The notes under the pieces are model-generated. The model ran no database searches and was not told where the DNA came from. It worked only from the letters and a program-made list of their open reading frames with translations. Shown piece by piece: positions 29,801 to 61,754 of a stretch of DNA of 64,000 nucleotides. Position numbers and translations under genes: made by a program. The DNA comes from Panopea generosa (taxonomy: Eukaryota; Mollusca; Bivalvia; Adapedonta; Hiatellidae): positions 52,689,388 to 52,753,387 of the forward strand of contig CM055911.1 in assembly GCA_029582155.1 (NCBI GenBank). The letters are read 5' to 3'. Position 1 is the stretch's first letter. Each line of letters opens with the position of its first letter.

Positions 29801-30234
29801 ACACGTGTGCAAAATATGGAAAGATCATCGGACTTAAAACAAATCCTGTGTAACTTCGTTTAGAAATATTTTCAAAATGGTTCATAGTTGTTGTGATTTC
29901 TTGCTGCAGAAGTTGGCATAGCACATTCTGCAATAAGACATCACTGGTGTTAAAAAGTGACTTTTATAGGATTTCATGTATTTATGAGCATTTGAGGACT
30001 TCTTGTTTTTTAAAAATCTTAAGGTGTCACAGCATCCTCTTTTTTAAAAAAAAACACAACAAAACAAGCTGGTCTACCTACCAGTTAGTGTGCATTTTTA
30101 TGTGGGTATACATTCCTGCAATGAAAAAAAAAATTAAAAAAAATTGTATGTAGAATTCTTTTTTTACCATTGAAATCCTAGATCCCACTACTTAACTCCC
30201 CGCGCCTTTGCGGTTGGTGTTGACTACTAAGTTT
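29801..30234. other. unannotated stretch
   Basis: A-runs near 30050 and 30125. The open frame at 29893 has no supporting context. Confidence 0.35.
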
Positions 30235-35337: not shown

Positions 35338-38300
35338 CCCATAAATTAACAGCTATGCACAGTGAGACGACCCATAAAATTACAGCTATGCACAGTGAGA
35401 CGACCCGTAAAATAACAGCTATGCACAGTGAGACGACCCATAAAATTACAGCTATGCACAGTGAGACGACCCGTAAAATAACAGCTATGCACAGCGAGAC
35501 AAACCGTAAAATAACAGCTATGCACAGTGAGACGACCCGTAAAATAACAGCTATGCACAGTGAGATGACCCGTAAAATTACAGCTATGCACAGTGAGACG
35601 ACCCGTAAAATAACAGCTATGCACAGCGAGACAAACCGTAAAATAACAGCTATGCACAGTGAGACAACCCGTTAAATAACAGCTATGCACAGTGAGACAA
35701 CCCGTTAAATAACAGCTATGCACAGCGAGACAACCCGTAAAATAACAGCTATGCACAGTGAGACGACCCGTAAAATAACAGCTATGCACAGTGAGACGAC
35801 CCATAAAATTACAGCTATGCACAGTGAGACAACCCGTTAAATAACAGCTATGCACAGTGAGACAACCCGTTAAATAACAGCTATGCACAGCGAGACAACC
35901 CGTAAAATAACAGCTATGCACAGTGAGACAACCCGTAAAATAACAGCTATGCACAGTGAGACAACCCGTAAAATAACAGCTATGCACAGTGAGACAACCC
36001 GTTAAATAACAGCTATGCACAGTGAGACGACCCGTAAAATAACAGCTATGCACAGCGAGACGACCCATAAAATAACAGCTATGCACAGTGAGACGACCCG
36101 TTAAATAACAGCTATGCACAGCGAGACGACCCGTAAAATAACAGCTATGCACAGTGAGACGACCCGTAAAATAACAGCTATGCACAGTGAGACGACCCGT
36201 TAAATAACAGCTATGCACAGTGAGACGACCCGTAAAATAACAGCTATGCACAGCGAGACAACCCGTAAAATAACAGCTATGCACAGCGAGACGACCCGTT
36301 AAATAACAGCTATGCACAGTGAGACGACCCGTAAAATAACAGCTATGCACAGTGAGACGACCCATAAAATTACAGCTATGCACAGCGAGACAACCCGTTA
36401 AATAACAGCTATGCACAGCGAGACAACCCGTTAAATAACAGCTATGCACAGCGAGACAACCCGTAAAATAACAGCTATGCACAGTGAGACAACCCGTAAA
36501 ATAACAGCTATGCACAGCGAGACGACCCGTAAAATAACAGCTATGCACAGCGAGACGACCCGTAAAATAACAGCTATGCACAGCGAGACGACCCGTTAAA
36601 TAACAGCTATGCACAGTGAGACGACCCGTAAAATAACAGCTATGCACAGCGAGACAACCCGTAAAATAACAGCTATGCACAGCGAGACGACCCGTAAAAT
36701 AACAGCTATGCACAGCGAGACGACCCGTTAAATAACAGCTATGCACAGCGAGACAACCCGTAAAATAACAGCTATGCACAGTGAGACAACCCGTAAAATA
36801 GCAGCTATGCACAGTGAGACAACCCGTTAAATAACAGCTATGCACAGTGAGACGACCCGTAAAATAACAGCTATGCACAGCGAGACAACCCGTAAAATAA
36901 CAGCTATGCACAGTGAGACGACCCGTTAAATAACAGCTATGCACAGTGAGACGACCCATAAAATTACAGCTATGCACAGTGAGACAACCCGTTAAATAAC
37001 AGCTATGCACAGTGAGACAACCCGTTAAATAACAGCTATGCACAGTGAGACGACCCGTTAAATAACAGCTATGCACAGCGAGACAACCCGTAAAATAACA
37101 GCTATGCACAGTGAGACGACCCATAAAATTACAGCTATGCACAGTGAGACGACCCGTTAAATAACAGCTATGCACAGTGAGACAACCCGTTAAATAACAG
37201 CTATGCACAGCGAGACAACCCGTAAAATAACAGCTATGCACAGTGAGACAACCCGTAAAATAACAGCTATGCACAGTGAGATGACCCGTAAAATAACAGC
37301 TATGCACAGTGAGACGACCCGTAAAATAACAGCTATGCACAGCGAGACGACCCGTAAAATAACAGCTATGCACAGCGAGACGACCCGTTAAATAACAGCT
37401 ATGCACAGCGAGACGACCCGTAAAATAACAGCTATGCACAGTGAGACGACCCGTAAAATAACAGCTATGCACAGTGAGACGACCCGTAAAATAACAGCTA
37501 TGCACAGCGAGACGACCCGTAAAATAACAGCTATGCACAGTGAGACGACCCGTTAAATAACAGCTATGCACAGCGAGACAACCCGTAAAATAACAGCTAT
37601 GCACAGTGAGACGACCCGTAAAATAACAGCTATGCACAGCGAGACGACCCGTAAAATAACAGCTATGCACAGTGAGACGACCCGTTAAATAACAGCTATG
37701 CACAGCGAGACGACCCGTAAAATAACAGCTATGCACAGCGAGACGACCCGTAAAATAACAGCTATGCACAGCGAGACGACCCGTAAAATAACAGCTATGC
37801 ACAGTGAGACGACCCGTAAAATAACAGCTATGCTCAGCGAGACGACCCGTAAAATAACAGCTATGCACAGTGAGACGACCCGTTAAATAACAGCTATGCA
37901 CAGTGAGACGACCCGTAAAATAACAGCTATGCACAGTGAGACGACCCGTAAAATAACAGCTATGCACAGTGAGACGACCCGTAAAATAACAGCTATGCAC
38001 AGTGAGACAACCCGTAAAATAACAGCTATGCACAGTGAGACGACCCATAAAATTACAGCTATGCACAGTGAGACGACCCGTAAAATTACAGCTATGCACA
38101 GTGAGACGACCCGTAAAATAACAGCTATGCACAGTGAGACAACCCGTAAAATAACAGCTATGCACAGTGAGACGACCCATAAAATTACAGCTATGCACAG
38201 TGAGACAACCCGTTAAATAACAGCTATGCACAGTGAGACGACCCGTAAAATAACAGCTATGCACAGTGAGACGACCCGTAAAATAACAGCTATGCACAGC

Positions 38301-38458
38301 GAGACAACCCGTAAAATAACAGCTATGCACAGTGAGACAACCCGTAAAATAACAGCTATGCACAGTGAGACGACCCATAAAATTACAGCTATGCACAGTG
38401 AGACAACCCGTTAAATAACAGCTATGCACAGTGAGACAACCCGTTAAATAACAGCTAT
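35338..38458 (+). repeat. 33-bp satellite, about 94 units
   Basis: Unit of form ATGCACAGTGAGACGACCCG plus TAAAATAACAGCT, repeated about 94 times without a visible indel. On the minus strand it gives one frame of 1061 codons (11-residue period V-H-S-C-Y-F-T-G-R-L-T). On the plus strand it gives M-H-S-E-T-T-R-K-I-T-A broken by TAA in about 26 units. Variable sites are few and recurrent: AGT/AGC, ACG/ACA, CGT/CAT, AAA/TAA, ATA/ATT. In the minus frame all of these change the residue, which argues against selection on that protein. Taken as non-coding satellite DNA kept uniform by unequal exchange or conversion. Confidence 0.95.
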
Positions 38459-39597
38459 GCTCCAGTCTTCGTGTAACACGACTCTCAGGCAAAATTATGA
38501 AATATGACACAGGCGTAGGTGGACCGGGCATAAATCAACTGTTTATATGAAATAGTCATTCATGTATTTAAGTGGCATTCTCATTCAAACCACTGAAGAT
38601 CTGATAACATTATTATTCAAATTTTATCTTTATCGAAATGCGGATGTACATATATATGTATAGAGATATGTTTTCAAAGTGATGACGTATTGTGCGCGTC
38701 ACTCTGGTTTCCCGTTTCATACCACAACTTCTGACACGAAGACTGGTGCATGGTAGTTAACTATTGGTACTATTTATACAACTCTTTAAATTCATGAGGA
38801 AATGCCACGTATCCAAGAAAGGTTGCACAATATAACGTTAAATGCTTATCATATTTGAAGAATCATTATTTATTTATGAACATGGATATACGTTATCGGT
38901 ATCATGTTCATATTTATCGTTCATGTTATTTGCTCAATTAACTTTTAAATTGCTTTCTTTCAGCCACCAATATGTATGTATATAGATATATGAATTTTAT
39001 GAAGTCAGTTATACACACACGTTATGTAATCATTACCACTCAAACATCCATGCGTATACACTTTGATGTATTACAGCTTCTCGCTAAGTATAGGCGACTT
39101 ATAGGCCCATTTCGAATAAGTGCGTAGAAATGGAATAGTTCAAGTCTTCTAAAGAGGCCGCACCTATAACGCCGATATTTTTTCGATCTTAACAGTAAAA
39201 CTGTATATTTATATCAAACTGGATATTCTGTTCAATAACTTATTTTGTCGTATTTTGTCTCTGTAATGTACAATTCTTTAATTTTGTTGACACAGTACTA
39301 ACTCGCGCCCCTCGATAAAGTCACTCATTGGCCAGTATCGGGTTATGCTAAAACATTGACTAATTGAACGGAAAATACCGACCTCTGTATTAACGAATTT
39401 CGCATAAATAATATAAACTACAAGGACGGAATCAACAATTTTCTTGGAATGGGAACTCCCTCTTTGTGTTTCAATAAACTCATTTACTGGACAGAAAGAC
39501 AGGTGGTGCATTTTTGAGTCAAAAGTCTCCTTTAAATTTAATAAAATATTGCAATCAGTGTATGACTTTGTAAAATTATGCCTTAAAGCAAACGGGT
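38459..39597. other. unannotated stretch right of the satellite
   Basis: Contains an inverted repeat: CCAGTCTTCGTGT at 38462-38474 and its complement in ACACGAAGACTGGTGCATG at 38732-38750, the first copy directly at the satellite edge. No gene was seen. Confidence 0.45.
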
Positions 39598-45185: not shown

Positions 45186-45629
45186 CCATGCAAAACTTTT
45201 GTTTGTTGCCAAAATTATGATATGGAACGGTGCAATTTACAAAAATTGAAATCATCGGTGATTCATCTTTATACAGAGATCGTTTTAGTCTTTGTTTCGT
45301 AAAATTTCATAAACTATTAAGAAAATTATCTGCCAAAATGTTACCTGAAACGAACACTTTTCCTCCTCCGAAGTTAGACTAGATTGTGTTTGACATTTGT
45401 GTTACCTGTTTTCCTTTTCTTTAATTGCATATCAGTCCAGTAAAATCATGGAAGAAAGACAATTAAAAAAATAGAAAAATCACAAAACTTTATACGGAAC
45501 TACTAAAACAATGAGCATGAGAACCAGTCTAGAAAATCCAATATGGCCGAAAAATCCAAGATGGCCTCCCTACACGTGTATAGTTATAAGAAATACACAT
45601 GTATATATTTTGTTTGGCTTATTTTGCAG

Positions 45630-45899
45630 ATGAATAGCTTCACCTGTGTACAGATACCACTAGTTGTGCTGCTGATGGTGATTATTGCATTTAGCAAAGG
45701 AACACAAGGAACGTGTCTCTGTGAGATGGTCTCAAAAGAAACACAACTTCCTTTGGGGAACCGTTTAAGAAACAGGGGGATTTTTTGGCAGAACGCTTGC
45801 GAGGCGACCATAGACCCAACCCAATACAGACGTCGTTTCACTGATTCAGACACAAATGAACCACATACATGCTGTTGCCAGGCCATCTGGAAATACCAG
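45630..45899 (+). CDS. secreted cysteine-rich protein, exon 1 (with signal peptide)
   Basis: Seen: an ATG at 45630 opens 90 codons ending at a consensus donor (CCAG|GTGAGAC). Residues 1-27 form a signal peptide (core P10-L-V-V-L-L-M-V-I-I-A) with probable cleavage near G-T-Q-G27. The mature part has C29-L-C31, C57 and an unusual triple cysteine C81-C-C83, with basic stretches (R46-L-R-N-R, R68-R-R). The frame is also open from an upstream Met at 45543, but TTATTTTGCAG directly precedes the chosen ATG and may be a splice acceptor after a leader exon. With exon 2 the protein has 113 residues and eight mature cysteines. I do not recognise the family; an extracellular ligand or defence-type small protein would be a guess. 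Confidence 0.78.
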
Positions 45900-45908
45900 G
45901 TGAGACTG

Positions 45909-46100
45909 CTTTACCTCCATTGATAGAATGCGTTCCCCTATCTGATCTATATTTTAATTTACCTCCCTTGATCATTGATTTCCCCATTGGGCATATATTT
46001 TGATTTACCTCCCTTGACAACACTGGTTCCCCATTTTACCTATATTTTTTTTTGTATACCTCCATTGACAAAACTGGTTCCCCATATGACCTATATTAAA
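45909..46100 (+). repeat. 46-51-bp tandem repeat next to the splice donor
   Basis: Four diverged units starting TTACCTCCATTGA or TTACCTCCCTTGA (45911, 45959, 46005, about 46055), each with TTCCCCAT..GACCTATATT. It begins 10 bp after the donor of exon 1. Confidence 0.85.
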
Positions 46101-46104
46101 TGTC

Positions 46105-46280
46105 ATCTTATTTATATAGCATCGCTTTAGGCGACACAAGACCTAACAACGTAGACAAATATTCCTGGTTGTAACCAATATTTCACGTATTTGATTAAAG
46201 TATCCATCATAATGACACCACCCGTGATCACATGGGCGTTCAAACCCACAACCATCGGATTGTTGTGTTGGTTATGCTAT
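46105..46280 (-). repeat. degenerate SINE family 3 copy
   Basis: GACACAAGACCTAACAACG, TTCCTGGTTGTAACCA and a diverged minus-strand B box at CGTTCAAACCCACAACC keep family order, but many positions are changed. Confidence 0.5.
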
Positions 46281-46792
46281 AAAATCAAAATATCTAACGG
46301 ACAGTTTCTCTGCACACGTGATATAATAATTATATTTTTTTCAATGTTATTGTGTTAAACTATGTTAATTGTCACGTATCTTACATTTGACACGGAACGG
46401 CTGCCTATGGTTATCAATTTAGTTGGTCAAATGTATAAATAATACAGTTAAATTGGTAGAAAAGTATTCCATAATCAGATTAGATTTACTTTTAGCAAAA
46501 AGCAATACCAAACGATCTGTAGTTTGTACATACGTTTTGCATTAAAGACACATTTCAGAATTCTTTTTTCAGAAAGAATAATAATATTTACAAGTTAAAT
46601 CCTTCATACGTGAACATGCATAAAGGTCTAAATAAGGAGATGAACTGAAAACATTAAAACATTTAAACGATTTTACATAAATTTCCATTTCACGAACCTT
46701 TGAGAGTGTATATTTGTTGTTATTTTTTTCATAAACACGTGTTTGAAATAACCTATATAAAATATACATCTGTGAAAAAGAATTCACTTGAC
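46281..46792. other. unannotated intronic stretch
   Basis: Intron of the cysteine-rich gene; AT-rich with nothing recognised. Confidence 0.35.
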
Positions 46793-47290
46793 TTGGGCTG
46801 TCAATCAAACAAGTCGATAATCCAATCAGCAATCAATATTGTTTCCATGGCCTTGACCGCGGCGTGGTCTAGTGGTAGAGCGTCCGCCTCGCATGCGGAA
46901 GGTCGTGGGTTCAATCCCCGGCCGGGTCATACCAAAGACTTTAAAAATGGTACTACAAGCTTCCTCGCTTGATGCTCAGCATTTAGAGGAGAGTTCTAGG
47001 TCTGGTTGGCCCGGTGTCAGTATAATGTGACTGGGTGGGGTATCATACCATGTGTCTGCGGCATGATACTCCAGTGTGACAGCGCTTAGAATACTGTCTC
47101 AAGTAGACACCGTCGCGATATGACTGAAAAATTGTTGAAAGCGACGCTAAACATCATACAATACAATGTTTCCATGGCCGCCATGTTAATGTCTCTTAGT
47201 AAGCATTACTTTGTATTTACTGGACAAACAACGCGCCACGTGGCCAACGGGCAAAGCGATAGTCTCTCTCGCGTCAGGGCAATTGCTTAA
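46793..47290 (+). repeat. dispersed element family A, copy 5, split by a SINE
   Basis: 46793-46852 (GGCTGTCAATCAAACAAGTC) and 47167-47290 (GGCCGCCATG, TTGTATTTACTGGACAAAC, CACGTGGCCAACGGGC) rejoin as one family A element around the inserted SINE. Confidence 0.9.
46853..47166 (+). repeat. SINE family 1 inserted in family A, 13-bp duplication
   Basis: Flanked by TGTTTCCATGGCC at 46840-46852 and 47167-47179. Head GCGGCGTGGTCTAGTGGTAG, B box GTGGGTTCAATCCCCGG, both body domains, the 3' motif AAAGCGACGCTAAAC and a short ACAATACAA tail are present. It is the cleanest family 1 copy here and a useful reference for the family. Confidence 0.96.
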
Positions 47291-47597
47291 TGGAAGGTTA
47301 AACTGTAAATCCGCGCGTTCCGCGTAAAAGATCCCCTTGTTCCGAAGTAATTGGTTCCCTGCACGCATGATACCTATTAAAATAACGTTTTTGTGTTAAA
47401 ATACTTCACTGTATATGTAGATTGAAGGTTATTTCACCTACTTAATGTTAATTTACTTCTGCGTGACGATATCGGCCACGCGAGTGTCCAAAACGAATAT
47501 GTGTTTTGAGCTGTTCAGAAGTGTATTCATAACACCAATAAATATTCGTTATTGTATGTATATTTTGGTATAGTATAACATGATTGTGATAATTACA
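47291..47597. other. unannotated intronic stretch
   Basis: Nothing recognised between the family A element and the family K MITE. Confidence 0.35.
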
Positions 47598-47765
47598 ATC
47601 AAACCTGTGTTAGCGGTCACCTCTATTAAGCAGTCATATTTATTATTTTCAATGTTTATGCTTTCGGAGCATATTACCCTGTATTAAGCAACAGCCTGTC
47701 TTAAAAAAATACAGCTTTTGCTACATCCCTTGACTGGCTGCTTAAAAGAGGTTTTACGGTATAGC
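47598..47765 (+). mobile_element. family K MITE, copy 3
   Basis: Left AATCAAACCTGTGTTAGCGG and right GCTTAAAAGAGGTTTTACGG form imperfect inverted ends. Interior GCAACAGCCTGTCTTAAAA and CCTTGACTGGCTGCTTAA match 31745 and 34354. Confidence 0.85.
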
Positions 47766-47839
47766 ACTTGGCGAACGTGTCTTGACTACACGTGGAATCT
47801 TCCCTATAATGTTATCGTTTTCCTTATCTCTCATTTTGT

Positions 47840-48020
47840 GTTCTCCTTTTATCTAACCGCTATTATTATTATTATTATTTTTTTGCGTAATGAGTGAAAA
47901 GAACTGTTTACAACGGACATTTTATAATGTTATGCCATGTTTTATATCTGTATCAATTTTTTATTGGAAGAGCCGTAACTAATGTTTTTTAAGAACTTGT
48001 CGTTAGACATTACGGCAATA
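47840..48020 (+). mobile_element. LINE 3' untranslated end
   Basis: GGAAGAGCCGTAACTAATG, then AAGAACTTGTCGTTAGAC and CAATAAAATATG: the same tail order as 29318-29390. No RT remains in front of it. Confidence 0.6.
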
Positions 48021-48135
48021 AAATATGTTTAAACTAACTGTAATGGAAATGCTAAAGTTATAGAATAACGACCACAGTGATACAAACATGCAATTATCAA
48101 AAAATGACAATGAACAATCACTAGTTCACAAAATA

Positions 48136-48412
48136 TGATGCTCTCCTCCCAGCGCTTAAACTACGTGCTCCTCCCAGCGCTTAAACTACGTGCTCCTCCC
48201 AGCACTTAAACTACGTGCTCCTCCCAGCGCTTAAACTACGTGCTCCTCCCAGCGCTTAAACTACGTGCTCCTCCCAGCGCTTAAACTACGTGCTCCTCCC
48301 AGCACTTAAACAACGTGCTCCTCCCAGCGCTTAAACTACGTGCTCCTCCCAGCGCTTAAACTACGTGCTCCTCCCAGCGCTTAAACTACGTGCTCCTCCT
48401 ACCACTTAAACT
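48136..48412 (+). repeat. 25-bp minisatellite, about 11 units
   Basis: Unit CTCCTCCCAGCGCTTAAACT plus ACGTG, starting at 48143, 48168 and so on. Units are nearly identical with one recurrent variant (AGCACTTAAAC), so the array is young. It lies in the intron of the cysteine-rich gene, 270 bp before exon 2. Confidence 0.97.
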
Positions 48413-48681
48413 ACTCAGCAATACAAACAATATATCAATTTATATGAGTTATATCGTGATTTCTGTTAAAAAAGGCAATAAAAACTCAAATTTTGTACTG
48501 CGTAAAGTATGTTAAGCAGAATTGTTATTTAAAATAAATATTACTCTTTAAAATTATATATATTTATTTATTACGTATTATGTTAATAAATAAAATACTA
48601 ATTAAACAGCTGTATTTCACATACGTATCTATATATCTATAAAAAAATATATTCAATACAATTTTTTTCTTCTATTTCCAG

Positions 48682-48753
48682 GAACATCGAAGTGGGCGTT
48701 ACTTCATTCCTAACGTCATTGACTGTTTGGTTATCAACTGCCCAAGCTTTTAG
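48682..48753 (+). CDS. secreted cysteine-rich protein, terminal exon 2
   Basis: Seen: acceptor TTCTATTTCCAG, then 23 codons and TAG in phase 0, continuing exon 1 exactly. It encodes residues 91-113 (E-H-R-S-G-R-Y-F-I-P-N-V-I-D-C-L-V-I-N-C-P-S-F), adding C105 and C110. The Y-F-I-P...C-X4-C ending, a hydrophobic strand closing with two cysteines, suits a disulfide-locked C-terminus. No AATAAA was seen within about 150 bp after the stop. The phase match and the polypyrimidine tract make the joining convincing, although no transcript was available. Confidence 0.75.
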   Translation, partial: EHRSGRYFIPNVIDCLVINCPSF

Positions 48754-49074: not shown

Positions 49075-49490
49075 CCAGTGACTGATTGAGATTTTATTAA
49101 CGCTCGCATATTCACGCAAAATCTCGTGAAATCTCATTTTCAATTATCCTAACTTCCGTTCATCTCTGAAATACAAATCCGGCAAAATTCTTTCTCTGCT
49201 CAATGAAATTCTCTACAAAATGAGACTATTCCCAAGCAATTGTGTTTAAAACTGTAGAATAACAAAATGATTACAAAATGTGTTTACTGCAATTAAAACA
49301 CCAAAAGAACTTGAAATTTTACTTCGAGATGCAATGTTTTTAATTCAAGACCACGTCTATTATTTTATGTATAAGAAATAAGTTGCCTTTGAAATCTGAA
49401 CGATTAATTAGTCAAATATTAATTCTTCGCATGCTATTTTATCAACATTTAGTAGGGAGATGCAAGTTTCCTATCGTTCTATATATATAT
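49075..49490 (+). repeat. dispersed element family H, copy 2
   Basis: Direct-orientation partner of 30570-31015: CTGATTGAGATTTTATTAAC, ATTCACGCAAAATCTCG, GAAATCTCATTTTCAA, AAGTTGCCTTTGAAATCTGA and ATGCAAGTTTCCTATCG. Confidence 0.85.
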
Positions 49491-50330: not shown

Positions 50331-51234
50331 ATTTGTAATGTGGGCACTATCCATATTGTATTATTATTTTTAAGGAATTTTATTCTTAATGTTAAAATAT
50401 AGAAACTTATAGAAAAGAAACATAGGGCAATCAGTGGTAATCACGGTATTCGATATTTTAAGACATTTCTTATCAACGCCATATTGCAATGTACGTACAT
50501 ATTATCAACGAAGTAATACAAAGAATCTTAATTAGATCTTATGGAAAGTTTGCATTGCCTTTTTATACATGACAATGCGCCGTTTATTGCGATTAACATT
50601 GGCTGAGCTAATTTTGATGCTTGTATATATATCTATATAACTAGAGTCTGGATAAAATTAACATTTTCTGTTATAATCTTATATTTTGGTTGTTGAATGT
50701 GTATATGTGATAGTAATAATAGTATATTAATACATTGTGCATGTTTATTTCATATAGTAACATAAAGTGATTATAATGTTTTGAAGTCTCGTTAGTCGGA
50801 ATAAAAGACCGGATATAGGAGTTTAATTGTACATTTATATGCTTTTATTTTAATTTGACTTTTATGTGTCACTAAAAAATGTTTAAGTCTAAGTCTTAAG
50901 TCTAATATTAACTTTGTTTGCTTTTATACTTAATATAATGTTTCTTGTTTTTGTTTTGTAAAATAATTACTGTAGCTATTTAAATCAATAAATTGTCTTT
51001 CTGCTTCTGTACTTAGTTTTCTCAGTATTCATTCAGGGTAAATTAGTTATACAAACATGTAAATAAAGGTCTCACATAACATAGCATGACAGTAGATTCT
51101 TGCGCCCAAGAAATTAGACCTGTGTAAATTATTTGGGTCTTATCTGTTGATGAAAATGAACAGAATTGTCGTATTTCTTTGTACATGTTAGAACATTGTA
51201 ACAATTTCATAAGTTATGCCAAATTTGGATGCCA
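50331..51234. other. unannotated AT-rich stretch
   Basis: AAGTCTAAGTCTTAAGTCTAA near 50884 only; no gene seen. Confidence 0.35.
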
Positions 51235-55713: not shown

Positions 55714-56213
55714 CTGAAAAGATTGTATTGTACTTTCTACAACCTTTCAACAAATTTTCATTCATACAACGAGCGGTTCTGTTTATGGCAGAATCTAAAA
55801 TACCGCAACACTGAAGTGTATTACCGTTCAAACATGATTAATGTACCCAGTATTTTTTTCAAATCTATATGGATGTGAAATTTATTCTTATGTACAATTA
55901 TATATTTAAATAGTATGCCATTCAATGTGACCTTCACCTTGAAGACAGTTGTACATTTTGCATGACACCACTATGTGATGAGTAAATATGCCTCGTTTTT
56001 TTTTAAATACATCCATATATACCAGACGTTTGAAGCGGAAACGATATACGTGTATAGGCTATAATAAATTATAAACAATGAAGTTCAGTGTGACATTGAC
56101 CTCGGGGTCCATGTCGCGTTCGGCAGATCGCTTTCATGTGATGTGTAACAGTTTTTTCAAAATCAATCGGTGCATACATGAGTTAGAAACACACACAAGA
56201 AATAAGTACTTAC

Positions 56214-56464
56214 TGAGAAGACAGATATTTTCCGATGTTGGAGGAATACTGTCCGATACAATGGTCAGAACTACAGAGAGGGACAGCAAAATCGTCAACG
56301 AAAATCCTACTTTTTCTCCACTTTCCACAGGTAACAGAAAAACGAACGTGCCGAGAAACGATAGGAATATAACCGGAAGTATCATGTTAAGTAAGTAGTA
56401 GGAGTACTTCCGCTTAAGGTTAATGGAAAAGTTCACGACCGGCATTGGATACCCTAGAAGTGTC
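56214..56464 (-). CDS. nicotinic-type channel subunit, TM1-TM2 exon
   Basis: Seen: acceptor TTTTTTCAG and donor GTAAGTAC bound 251 nt. After the pre-TM1 strand (V-V-N-F-S-I-N-L-K-R-K-Y-S-Y-Y) comes TM1 with the invariant proline (L-N-M-I-L-P-V-I-F-L-S), then L-L-P-V-E-S-G-E-K, TM2 (V-G-F-S-L-T-I-L-L-S-L-S-V-V-L-T-I-V) and P-P-T-S-E. Known: the S-G-E-K motif at the cytoplasmic end of TM2 is typical of cation-selective nicotinic subunits, while anion channels usually have a proline-alanine-arginine motif there. The loop C region just before (I-G-S-S-V-G-S-A-I-K-T-L-L-G-Y-P) has no adjacent cysteine pair, so this is not a classical alpha subunit. Confidence 0.96.
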
Positions 56465-57184
56465 CTGAAAAAACAGAAACAAATACAAATATTTAATGTG
56501 TGTTTTTTTAAGTGTTTGACAATAGTTTGAAGAAAATCTAGATGAAAATATTATAGTACTTGGATTAATCGTAATATATAAAGATTTAGACGTATATTCA
56601 ACGAATACGGCTTTTTTGACCCCACATATAACCAAGGGAGATATCTACGATATGATTTGCCACAGGGAATTAATTTGTCTCCCATTAGTTTTGAAGACAC
56701 GTGATGTAAGTTAATATTATTTCAAAGTGTAAATATCACTTAAATTATAAACTCAGGATAAATTTATATTTGTTACCCCCTCTTACCCACCAATGTGTAA
56801 TTTCTCTTTGCTCGGCTTTTACTTTGTACTTTCATCACGAGAGCGACCGGAGTAAGAGAAACGTGTTCCTGTCATGACTGGTATTTAAAGACTGCAGATA
56901 TTCGTTCGAAGGATCATGCTATTCCCAACATCCAATGCGGGATGGTGAATAGGCAGAGTACATACTTTTGAAGCTAGTACAATAATTGGACTTTATTCTG
57001 GACATCTGGTGTCGGGGTTTAGTTGATAAGTGACAGTAATTGTCAGCAAGTTAATTAGTTTATCCTCTCAAGGTCTCACTTATCAATTACCTCCCTTTAG
57101 TGACGGTAGCAAGATTATTGCGCCCGAAAAGTTAAAACATAATTTTTGTTGACAATGCTTCAAATGGTCCTTTTTCTTTGTACA
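56465..57184. other. unannotated part of a receptor intron
   Basis: No further exon or element recognised on either strand. Confidence 0.4.
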
Positions 57185-57420: not shown

Positions 57421-58080
57421 TGTTCCAGAAGAGCATATCTCTATATGTAGAACAGTACAACATTAATAGGTATGTGAGACGTCAAGTGTTCCAGAAAACA
57501 ATGTCTCTATATGTAGAACAGTACAAAATTAATAGGTGTGTGAGACGTCGAGTGTTCCTGAAGTGTATGTCTCTATATGTAGAATAGAACAATATTAATA
57601 GGTGTGTGAGACGTCCAGTGTACCATAAGTGTATGTCTCTATATGTAGAACAAAACAACATTAATAGGTGTGTGAGACGTCCAGTGTTCCTGAAGTGTAT
57701 GTCTCTATATGTAGAACAGAACAACATTAATAGGTGTGTGAGACGTCCAGTGTTCCTGAAGTGTATTTATCTATTTGTAGTACAGAACAACATTAATAGG
57801 TGTGTGAGACGTCCAGTGTTCCTGAAGTGCATGTCTCTATATGTAGAACAGATCAACATTAAAAGGTGTGTGAGACGTCCAGTGTTCCTGAAGTGTATGT
57901 CTCTATATGTAGAACAGAACAACATTAAAAGGTGTGTGAGACGTCCAGTGTTCCTGAAGTGCATGTCTCTATATGTAGAACAGAACAACATTAATAGGTG
58001 TGTGAGACGTCCAGTGTTCCTAGAGTGCATGTCTCTATATGTAGAACAGAACAACATTAATAGGTGTGTGAGACGTACAA
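57420..58080 (+). repeat. 66-bp minisatellite, about ten units
   Basis: Unit AGTGTTCCTGAAGTGTATGT, CTCTATATGTAGAACAGAAC, AACATTAATAGGTGTGTGAGACGTCC; TGAGAC starts at 57541 and 57607. Because 66 is a multiple of three, both strands show long open frames with a 22-residue period. It begins inside family I and lies in the intron between the two upstream receptor exons. Confidence 0.97.
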
Positions 58081-58803
58081 GGACTGAGTCAGCGCTTAGT
58101 TTTTGCTTCGAATGAAGCATAAAAATGAGTGAATGATACATGTCGCGAGAATACTCTTCCAGAGGGTTGCGAAAACTAGTAATGATGATGATGATGATGT
58201 CTTCGGGTGATGCTTGCGCTAAAATATTTAAATCATGCACGCATACATGCATATGTTAAAGTTAAATGATTGTCTTTATAGGGTACGTTTTTTTCAATTA
58301 TACAATATATTTTAGCAATGTATACAGCGTAATGATGTACTCGAATGACCCGTATGTTGGAACGATACCTGTGTTTGAATGATATATATGTGAATATATA
58401 TGATGCAATTAAATGAGTGTTTGAATAGCGTAAAATATTAACTGATTTTCTTTCTGAGTTTATAGTGCATAGAGGTATCAAAAAAGCATTTGTTCATGTA
58501 ACACTCAAGAGAATGATGGTTGTCTGCTCAGTGTGTACACTGTTAACACTGTAAAGTATTCATACCTCATTCCTAAGCTTCAATTTACTTCTCCTAAAAC
58601 TCTTTCAATATGTTCCAAAAAATTAATTATATAAAAAGAGTCATTCAAGTTATCAAAATGGCCATTAAAAATAAAGAAATGTATTTTTTAAATAAAAATT
58701 ATAGCCATTAATCGACTACCTTACGGAAACACTTCCATTTTCTTATGGTTGTTTACTTATTGAAAGATACTTTATTATTTTTTTAAACAACAAAACAACT
58801 TAC
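58081..58803. other. unannotated part of a receptor intron
   Basis: A short ATG/GAT triplet run at 58180-58200. No exon recognised. Confidence 0.4.
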
Positions 58804-59400: not shown

Positions 59401-60671
59401 TGATCATATTTTGGCATGATATAATGAAAATATTTGAGCCACTTTGAAAAAGCCTGATATACTTCGTTAACATTAGATGTATGTATTATATTTTTCACAG
59501 TACAGAATAAATACATAGTTATGTATACATTGTACGTCTGTTATTCCTATGTTAAAATAGATTTCAAAAGAAGAGAGTTCAGTAAAAATTATGCGTCTGT
59601 TCTAATCCCAATATGTATTGTCATTGTATATGGTCAGCTACCACCATTGCGTTTTCCATAGACTTACATTATAACGTTTGACCAAACTTTCACAATTTCT
59701 ATCATTGGCGGACTAAAAAGTCCTATATCATATTAAAAAAATGTCCTAGACTCAAATTAAAATGTCCCCAAAATGGGGTCAAAAGTACCATATTTTACCT
59801 CTTTCAGCATGAAAAAAAGTAAATTTCACCAATTTTACTTTCAATGCAGTTTCCTTGATAAAATGAATTTAGTCAGTCACAGAAACATAATTCTAATTTC
59901 TTATTGACACAAACATAATAAACTTATATTTTATTGTGATCATTTGCCAGTGTAGCATTTTCATCCAACCAGAATTAAGCTTACTATAAAAATATATGCC
60001 CTGAACACCCCTATACTTTTCTCAGCCAATCAGAGAGCTCGTCTCAATGGTGAAAGCTGATCATTTACAGGCATACGTTGTAAAGTTTAAACTAAATACA
60101 TGAAGAAAAACAGAATAAGAGTGTTAGTAATATGTTTTCTATTCTAAGTCTCAAAACAAATCATTTGTGAATATTTAATGACAGCTGTGAGTGCTGACGT
60201 CTTCTGTGTGGTGAAATAAAACAAACAAAGACAAAACTAATATTGAAAAAAGGTCGCGAGCAGAGCGTATGCACGTAAATTTTATCGGGACAAGAAAAAC
60301 TAAGTAATTGTCAGTTTTAAGCAGTATGTGGATGAAAATTTTGAAAAAAGTGGATATGAATAACATCATTATGGCATAGTGTACTTTTGAGGCAACAATT
60401 TGAAAGAATGGTGAAGTTATTTTAGCTTTCTTCTAAACAAAGGATTGTGTCGAATATTTTCAAATCGCGTTAGCGCGCACGCTTTTCTGGACTTGTGTAT
60501 AGTGAATGGAATGTTGTGGACATCGCTCTCCATATATACGTTAATAGATATTTATTTGTGTTACGGATATGTTAATGTGTAAGGTTCAATAGATAAGGAC
60601 TAAAAGCAGCTTTCGGAGTAGAGAACTACAGGCAAGCACACTTTTATTTTTTCACAAACCGATATTTCAAT
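59401..60671. other. unannotated stretch, includes LINE ORF1 leader
   Basis: A CCAATCAGAG word lies at 60025-60034. The last part, from about 60590, is presumably the leader of ORF1. No receptor exon was recognised on the minus strand. Confidence 0.4.
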
Positions 60672-61754
60672 ATGCCTGCCAAAAAAGATCAAGGCCAAGC
60701 CCAGAGACGCAAGGTCCGGGGTGAAAGTAAATCAGGGGAATCTAAATCGGACGATTTAGATACAAGTGTCGAATCGAGCCCAGCCAAAGTCCGTTCAAAC
60801 GGATCAGAAATCCCAGAAGAGAAACATGACAACAAAGGACGGACACAACAACAAAACACAATTGAAACCATGTTCAAGAAAGGTAGAAATGAGAAATCCA
60901 GTGAAGAATCGGATTCCCTGAGCAATATTCTCAAATCTTTTGAAACCAAGCTAAGTAATGTAGCTTCACAAGAATATATAGAAAGTGCTCTTAAAAAGAT
61001 GCTCACAGAAGCTGTGTTTACACAAAAACTAAATGATGTAAAAGCAGACATAACACAACAAATAAAATCAGAGATCGACAAAGTGTACACACACATTGAA
61101 ACAATAAAGAAAAAAATAGTGGTCCTGGAATCCGAAGTAACAGAGCTAAAGAATACAATATCAGACATGGAAACGGAACAAGAAAAATTTTTCGAATCTA
61201 ACACAAAAATCAGAAAGGAAAATTCAGATCTTAAAAATACTATTGATGAAATGAAAATGTCCTTAAAAGCCAGAGAAAACGAAAACAATGAGATCGAGCA
61301 GTATACTAGAAGAAACAGTGTAAGAATATATGGTATTCATGATGATAACCCCAGGGAAACAGCTGAAGTGACGACGGAAAAAGTCGTAGAAATGGTTAAA
61401 AGACACCTATATATACAGATCAGTGCACGAGATGTTGATATAGCGCATAGAATGGGACAATTTCGCGGTGATGGAAATAGACCAATAATATGCAAGTTTG
61501 TATCCAGAATGGTGAAACTACGAGTAATACAAAATCGTAAAAAACTCAAAGGTAAAACAACAGTTATTAGAGAAGATCTCACGTTAAAAAATGCTAAAAG
61601 ACTAGAACTGGTCAGCAGGATAAGTAATGTTACCAGAGCATGGAGTGAGGAGGGACGCATATTAGCCATTATTGAAGATGGTAAAAAAGTTGTTGTGGAT
61701 TGCAAGACTGACATTTCTAGGCCATTAGTATACAGTCAACCACAGAGACGGTAA
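60672..61754 (+). CDS. intact LINE ORF1 protein (coiled coil plus RNA-binding domain)
   Basis: Role: ORF1 proteins of L1-type LINEs form trimers through a coiled coil and bind the element RNA in cytoplasmic particles needed for retrotransposition. Seen: a full 360-codon frame from ATG to TAA without interruption. Residues 1-80 are charged and disordered. About 85-210 is a long coiled coil with heptad-like spacing (I-E-T-I-K-K-K-I-V-V-L-E-S-E-V). About 213-300 is an RRM-like domain (R-R-N-S-V-R-I-Y-G-I near 214, D-I-A-H-R-M-G at 256-262, R-P-I-I-C-K-F at 270-276). A C-terminal domain follows (E-D-L-T at 301, A-W-S-E-E-G-R at 323). The strong coding bias and lack of lesions suggest recent insertion. 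No endonuclease or RT frame follows, so the copy is not autonomous. Orientation is opposite to the receptor gene. Confidence 0.9.
   Translation: MPAKKDQGQAQRRKVRGESKSGESKSDDLDTSVESSPAKVRSNGSEIPEEKHDNKGRTQQQNTIETMFKKGRNEKSSEESDSLSNILKSFETKLSNVASQEYIESALKKMLTEAVFTQKLNDVKADITQQIKSEIDKVYTHIETIKKKIVVLESEVTELKNTISDMETEQEKFFESNTKIRKENSDLKNTIDEMKMSLKARENENNEIEQYTRRNSVRIYGIHDDNPRETAEVTTEKVVEMVKRHLYIQISARDVDIAHRMGQFRGDGNRPIICKFVSRMVKLRVIQNRKKLKGKTTVIREDLTLKNAKRLELVSRISNVTRAWSEEGRILAIIEDGKKVVVDCKTDISRPLVYSQPQRR

Follow-up and report, generated by a model that had tools for sequence, protein, structure and literature searches.

A divergent family of predicted secreted proteins with an eight-cysteine framework in Panopea generosa

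Introduction

Does a short split open frame in the genome of the bivalve Panopea generosa encode a working secreted protein, and what kind of protein would it be? In invertebrates, families of small, cysteine-rich secreted proteins that lack known relatives yield new hormones, cytokines and defence peptides. The frame lies in a stretch of 64,000 nucleotides (assembly GCA_029582155.1, contig CM055911.1, positions 52,689,388 to 52,753,387 of the forward strand), hereafter called the window and numbered from its first letter. A sequence-only reading of the window had proposed a complete two-exon gene for a signal-peptide-bearing protein with eight mature cysteines, including a triple C and a terminal C-x4-C, whose spacing fits no cystine-knot or defence-peptide pattern that can be named; on that ground it had suggested that the protein may be a lineage-specific ligand or effector.

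Results

Structure of the gene and its predicted product

Coding exon 1 occupies positions 45630-45899 of the forward strand: 90 codons from the ATG, ending in W-K-Y-Q, which encode the probable signal peptide and all but the last two of the eight mature cysteines. Its last codon, CAG, is followed by GTGAGA. Coding exon 2 (48682-48753, same strand) is preceded by TTTTTTTCTTCTATTTCCAG and consists of 23 codons and a TAG stop, encoding EHRSGRYFIPNVIDCLVINCPSF with the last two cysteines (C-x4-C). The GT...AG intron between them (45900-48681) measures 2,782 bases, and the 45899/48682 junction is in phase 0, giving a spliced product of 113 residues. Exons 1 and 2 (mean G+C 0.45 and 0.43) are richer in G+C than the neighbouring 1-kb stretches (0.28-0.35), and none of their 14-mers appears a second time in the window, whichever strand is read. 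With its open frame, good splice sites and phase-0 junction, this looks like a complete spliced coding gene exactly where the sequence-only reading had placed it, and the DNA predicts that it is spliced in vivo.

The term "two-exon" stands for the coding part; the transcript is probably longer. Directly before the ATG, TTTTGCAG ends in an AG (45628-45629, forward strand) that is probably the acceptor of a 5'-UTR intron. The same AG|ATG arrangement is found in all four genes of the family described below, which suggests a non-coding 5' exon for each. What had been called exon 1 would then come second in the transcript.

The N-terminus resembles a signal peptide, as had been claimed: a hydrophobic stretch, IPLVVLLMVIIAF, is followed by small residues before T-C-L-C, and by eye we place the probable signal peptide at residues 1-27 (45630-45710, forward strand). 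If cleavage occurs just before T28, a site likewise chosen by eye, the mature part counts 86 residues, with a mass of about 10.1 kDa and a calculated pI of 7.5. All eight mature cysteines, the triple C and the C-x4-C end are present in the spliced translation, with a spacing of 1,25,23,0,0,21,4, and the chain closes with C-P-S-F-stop, three residues past C-x4-C. A structure prediction of exon 1 alone reached a mean pLDDT of 47.9, insufficient for fold searching; its sole better stretch contains two strands predicted at mature residues 38-44 and 51-57.

The intron itself holds a tRNA-Ala(CGC)-like element (46857-46928), followed by a tail that we take to be SINE-like, and a 25-bp minisatellite (48143-48414). 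Elsewhere in the window, profile scans of eight stretches identified as the closest gene a Cys-loop ligand-gated ion channel (transmembrane exon at 56137-56550, reverse strand; PF02932, E 1.2e-13). The segment 54881-55216 (reverse strand) matched no Pfam family and resembles by eye the C-terminal part of that channel. No link between this receptor and the eight-cysteine gene is apparent. A 1,062-codon open frame at 35346-38534 (reverse strand), made of a short tandem repeat of the HSCYFTGRLTV type, is more likely to be a minisatellite than a gene. Another frame of 385 codons (60597-61754, forward strand), with a coiled coil and a RRNSVRIYGI stretch, presumably resembles a LINE ORF1 protein; Pfam matches for 60672-61751 were sub-threshold only. 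A tandem repeat at 57482-58255 is open on both strands (INRCVRRPVFLKCMSLYVEQNN / LTHLLMLFCSTYRDIHFRNTGR).

Three paralogues on another contig

We searched the whole genome (1.47 Gb in 39 contigs, the window lying on contig C18) with the window protein and found exon-1 matches to three genes on contig C14: C14c (24467888-24471396, forward strand; E 4.7e-7), C14a (24330368-24331067, reverse strand; E 2.2e-4) and, weakly, C14b (24443824-24445461, forward strand; E 2.56). These three genes form a loose cluster within about 141 kb, one of them on the opposite strand. Used as queries in turn, C14a recovered C14c (E 3.9e-10) and the window gene on C18 (E 4.9e-4), and C14c recovered C14a (E 2.0e-10) and the window gene (E 3.4e-7). 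C14b found itself and otherwise only the window gene, at E 1.64.

The three paralogues share with the window gene a hydrophobic, signal-peptide-like start directly after the AG, a C-x-C, a further single cysteine and the motif CCC-x2-[VI]-W-x-[YW]; one residue later, a GTRAG donor opens a phase-0 intron. In all four genes this intron thus begins three residues past the tryptophan. The E-values of C14b are not significant, and we counted it as a member because of its CCC-W core, its intron and the shuffle test given below. It remains the weaker member: its loops are shorter, and its second exon was assigned from position and pattern only.

For tandem paralogues beyond the window, which the sequence-only reading had thought worth seeking, there is a partial answer: the best candidates of four protein queries include neither a second family member on C18 nor near-identical tandem copies, and the relatives are those loosely clustered on C14. 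In all we recognise four members, the window gene on C18 and the three on C14, although relatives of greater divergence could have escaped the searches.

Several further matches were dropped after inspection by eye. C16 (E 4.37 with the window protein) lacks the signal stretch, the C-x-C and the CCC-W framework, or contains stops; C11 (E 0.24) and C22 (E 1.85), found with C14a, and C9 (E 0.095) and C12 (E 3.07), found with C14c, miss the framework and the signal stretch or likewise contain stops. The match C6 (E 3.5e-4 with C14a) was discarded despite its E-value because it has six stops and its frames resemble a repeat-like stretch of the window near 29854.

The CCC-W motif alone proved uninformative, since CCC-x2-[VI]-W occurs 50 times in the whole genome and 54 times in the reversed control. 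Among the 42 of these 50 matches that we inspected are the four family genes; by eye, the other 38 lack a signal stretch and a C-x-C at family spacing in the same frame. Five of the 50 fall within 6.3 kb on one strand (G000 C12:52381723-52388049); one of the five was inspected, and the cluster is probably a TG-rich repeat. Viral contigs (IMG/VR) gave six pattern matches and no relative by tblastn, a result that says little on lineage restriction.

Second exons of the paralogues

To find the second exons of the paralogues, we looked downstream of exon 1 for an AG leading into an open frame that contains two cysteines before its stop. The presence of the two terminal cysteines in the paralogues was thus partly imposed by the search. 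Three patterns were used, the first being the looser (C-x2-10-C). Under a Markov model of the window, they yield 0.88, 0.47 and 1.25 chance stretches per 10 kb, respectively; a stricter figure of 0.1 applies with an added pyrimidine condition, absent from the first and second patterns as used.

For C14a, the first pattern gave one stretch, about 350 bases below exon 1. For C14c, the second pattern gave one unrelated stretch and the third two candidates, of which we kept the one similar to C14a. For C14b, the single stretch returned by the first, looser pattern was retained; the second pattern returned none and the third two others, which were not kept.

Three of these exons resemble one another: the similarity scores of C14a with the window gene and of C14a with C14c were each reached by 0 of 2,000 shuffles, and that of the window gene with C14c by 4 of 2,000. 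The exon 2 assigned to C14b is unlike the rest, as 1,223 (window gene), 792 (C14a) and 928 (C14c) of 2,000 shuffles reached its scores. Similar to none of them, it is regarded as tentative.

A conserved framework in divergent proteins

The mature proteins beat all 1,000 shuffles in each of the six possible pairs. Identity to the window protein is 30% for C14c, 27% for C14b and 26% for C14a. The cysteine spacing is 1,25,23,0,0,21,4 in the window protein, 1,25,22,0,0,21,4 in C14a, 1,24,22,0,0,21,4 in C14c and 1,13,16,0,0,23,7 in C14b. The framework C-x-C-x24/25-C-x22/23-CCC-x21-C-x4-C therefore describes the window protein and two of the three paralogues. C14b departs from it, with loops of 13 and 16 residues instead of 24-25 and 22-23, and with a C-x7-C end.

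Invariant columns, in the numbering of the window protein, are M1, L11, C29, C31, C57, N76, P78, C81, C82, C83, W87, C105 and V107. Apart from C110, the final cysteine, which has a different position in C14b, they include every mature cysteine, seven in all, together with the tryptophan and an N-x-P. That identity is as low as 26-30% and yet these seven cysteines, the tryptophan and N-x-P are invariant suggests, from these alignments, old genes under constraint on their fold.

The same comparison bears on whether the locus might not be a working gene at all, being instead a chance open frame or a pseudogene. Such a reading could draw on the region downstream, where no polyadenylation signal is close to the stop: neither AATAAA nor ATTAAA was found within 500 bases past it, ATTAAA first appearing at 49292 and AATAAA at 50800. 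However, four genes have open frames, the same intron phase and place, and conserved cysteines, which makes chance very unlikely. These homologous exons in three other genes lift the window gene above chance; a non-functional locus is scarcely credible, and we are highly confident that the gene and its family are real.

Comparison with known families

The claim that no cystine-knot or defence-peptide pattern can be named for the window protein was borne out at E<=10, where it matched no Pfam family and no PDB chain. C14a and C14c are equally without any Pfam match at that level, and PDB searches with the family profile and with the C-terminal profile likewise gave no chain. C14b gave Pfam matches below the curated cut-offs, to ECSCR (E 0.018) and SIT (E 0.027), both of which begin in the hydrophobic signal stretch.

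Canonical cystine-knot growth factors have a C-x(1-3)-C and later a C-x-C, and in IL-17 the C-terminal half carries the C-x-C that closes the cystine knot. The order in the present family is not that of the growth factors, with C-x-C first and C-x4-C last. One could nevertheless imagine a relict or diverged IL-17 or cystine-knot cytokine: by eye, W-x-[YW], an RY in three of the four proteins and C-x4-C in three of the four follow one another as in IL-17 cores. Among mussel IL-17 genes, two exons are the commonest structure (PMC8353272). Pfam speaks against it, with no match to the IL-17 family (PF06083) at E<=10 in any of the four members and, in three of them, no match of any kind. When a core stretch of IL-17A was compared with the four members, every score lay within shuffles (z -0.7 to 1.1; reached by 1620, 916, 999 and 297 of 2000 shuffles). 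Moreover, the window protein ends three residues past its C-x4-C, so the C-terminal half with its C-x-C is absent. We dropped the IL-17 reading, which we consider very improbable, on account of the shuffle scores and this missing half.

Finally, the framework turned up neither in word searches of one library of papers nor in passages of PMC8398477, PMC6425005, PMC8353272 and PMC4517768, a kind of search that cannot show it to be undescribed.

Discussion

We now propose a role for this protein, in steps that remain conditional. The signal peptide would direct it into the secretory pathway. The eight cysteines could pair as four disulphides, locking a small fold around the N-x-P-x-x-CCC-x2-[VI]-W core. 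Once released, such a small and stable extracellular protein would most likely, at a guess, act as a signalling ligand that binds some partner outside the cell, in the manner of a cytokine or a hormone. In broader terms, a disulphide-locked extracellular ligand or defence factor is the most probable identity, and none of the findings tells a ligand apart from a defence or structural protein. Taken on its own, the ligand role is tentative, and we lean slightly against it. The reading as a whole, of a working animal nuclear gene for a secreted disulphide-rich ligand of about 86 mature residues in a divergent four-member family, strikes us as an even call.

The charge and the copy number of the family bear on the choice between a ligand and a peptide antibiotic. 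Small, secreted, cysteine-rich proteins encoded by clustered and divergent paralogues are common among molluscan defence peptides, and the present proteins, with their diverged genes in a loose cluster, answer that description. They could act as humoral defence effectors: four-disulphide antimicrobial or opsonin-like peptides from haemocytes or mucosa. The calculated pI of the four mature proteins is merely 7.5-8.7, though, near-neutral to mildly basic; among the best candidates of four genome searches only four genes were recognised, without near-identical tandem copies, and no Pfam defence family was matched. Moderate pI and low copy number weakly favour a ligand over an antibiotic that would be strongly cationic and present in many copies, and we judge a defence effector somewhat unlikely.

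Orphan cysteine-rich secreted proteins are also frequent in shell matrix, mucus, byssus, and egg or sperm coats, and on this general ground a structural or reproductive protein could be considered. By eye, however, the four sequences are free of repeats and low-complexity stretches, and nothing specific favours such a function, which we regard as distinctly unlikely.

Returning to the ligand, a bolder version has a slim chance of being right: the four genes may encode secreted ligands of a hitherto undescribed family, built on a novel disulphide framework (CxC...C...CCC...Cx4C), that act in signalling or immunity within a single molluscan branch. Its C-x-C and C-x4-C strands would then possibly pair in the reverse of the order seen in cystine-knot cytokines. 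By itself the family would be one more orphan; nothing found points to a new principle, and its interest lies in the unfamiliar cysteine framework. The family does have a clear signature, CCC-x2-[VI]-W with a fixed intron, which can be used to look for it in other molluscs.

Two known systems invite comparison. Invertebrate IL-17 proteins (PF06083) also have a C-x4-C after W and RY. They differ from the window protein in that there is no profile match, the similarity is not above that of shuffles, and the C-x-C sits at the other end. Like the predicted window protein, they are small, secreted and often encoded by two exons (PMC8353272). The second system is that of the novel secreted orphan proteins of aphids (PMC3574423, a paper in which the term "eight cysteine" occurs). 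Those are insect proteins for symbiosis, likened here by description; as an analogy of kind only, they too are orphan, secreted and belong to one lineage.
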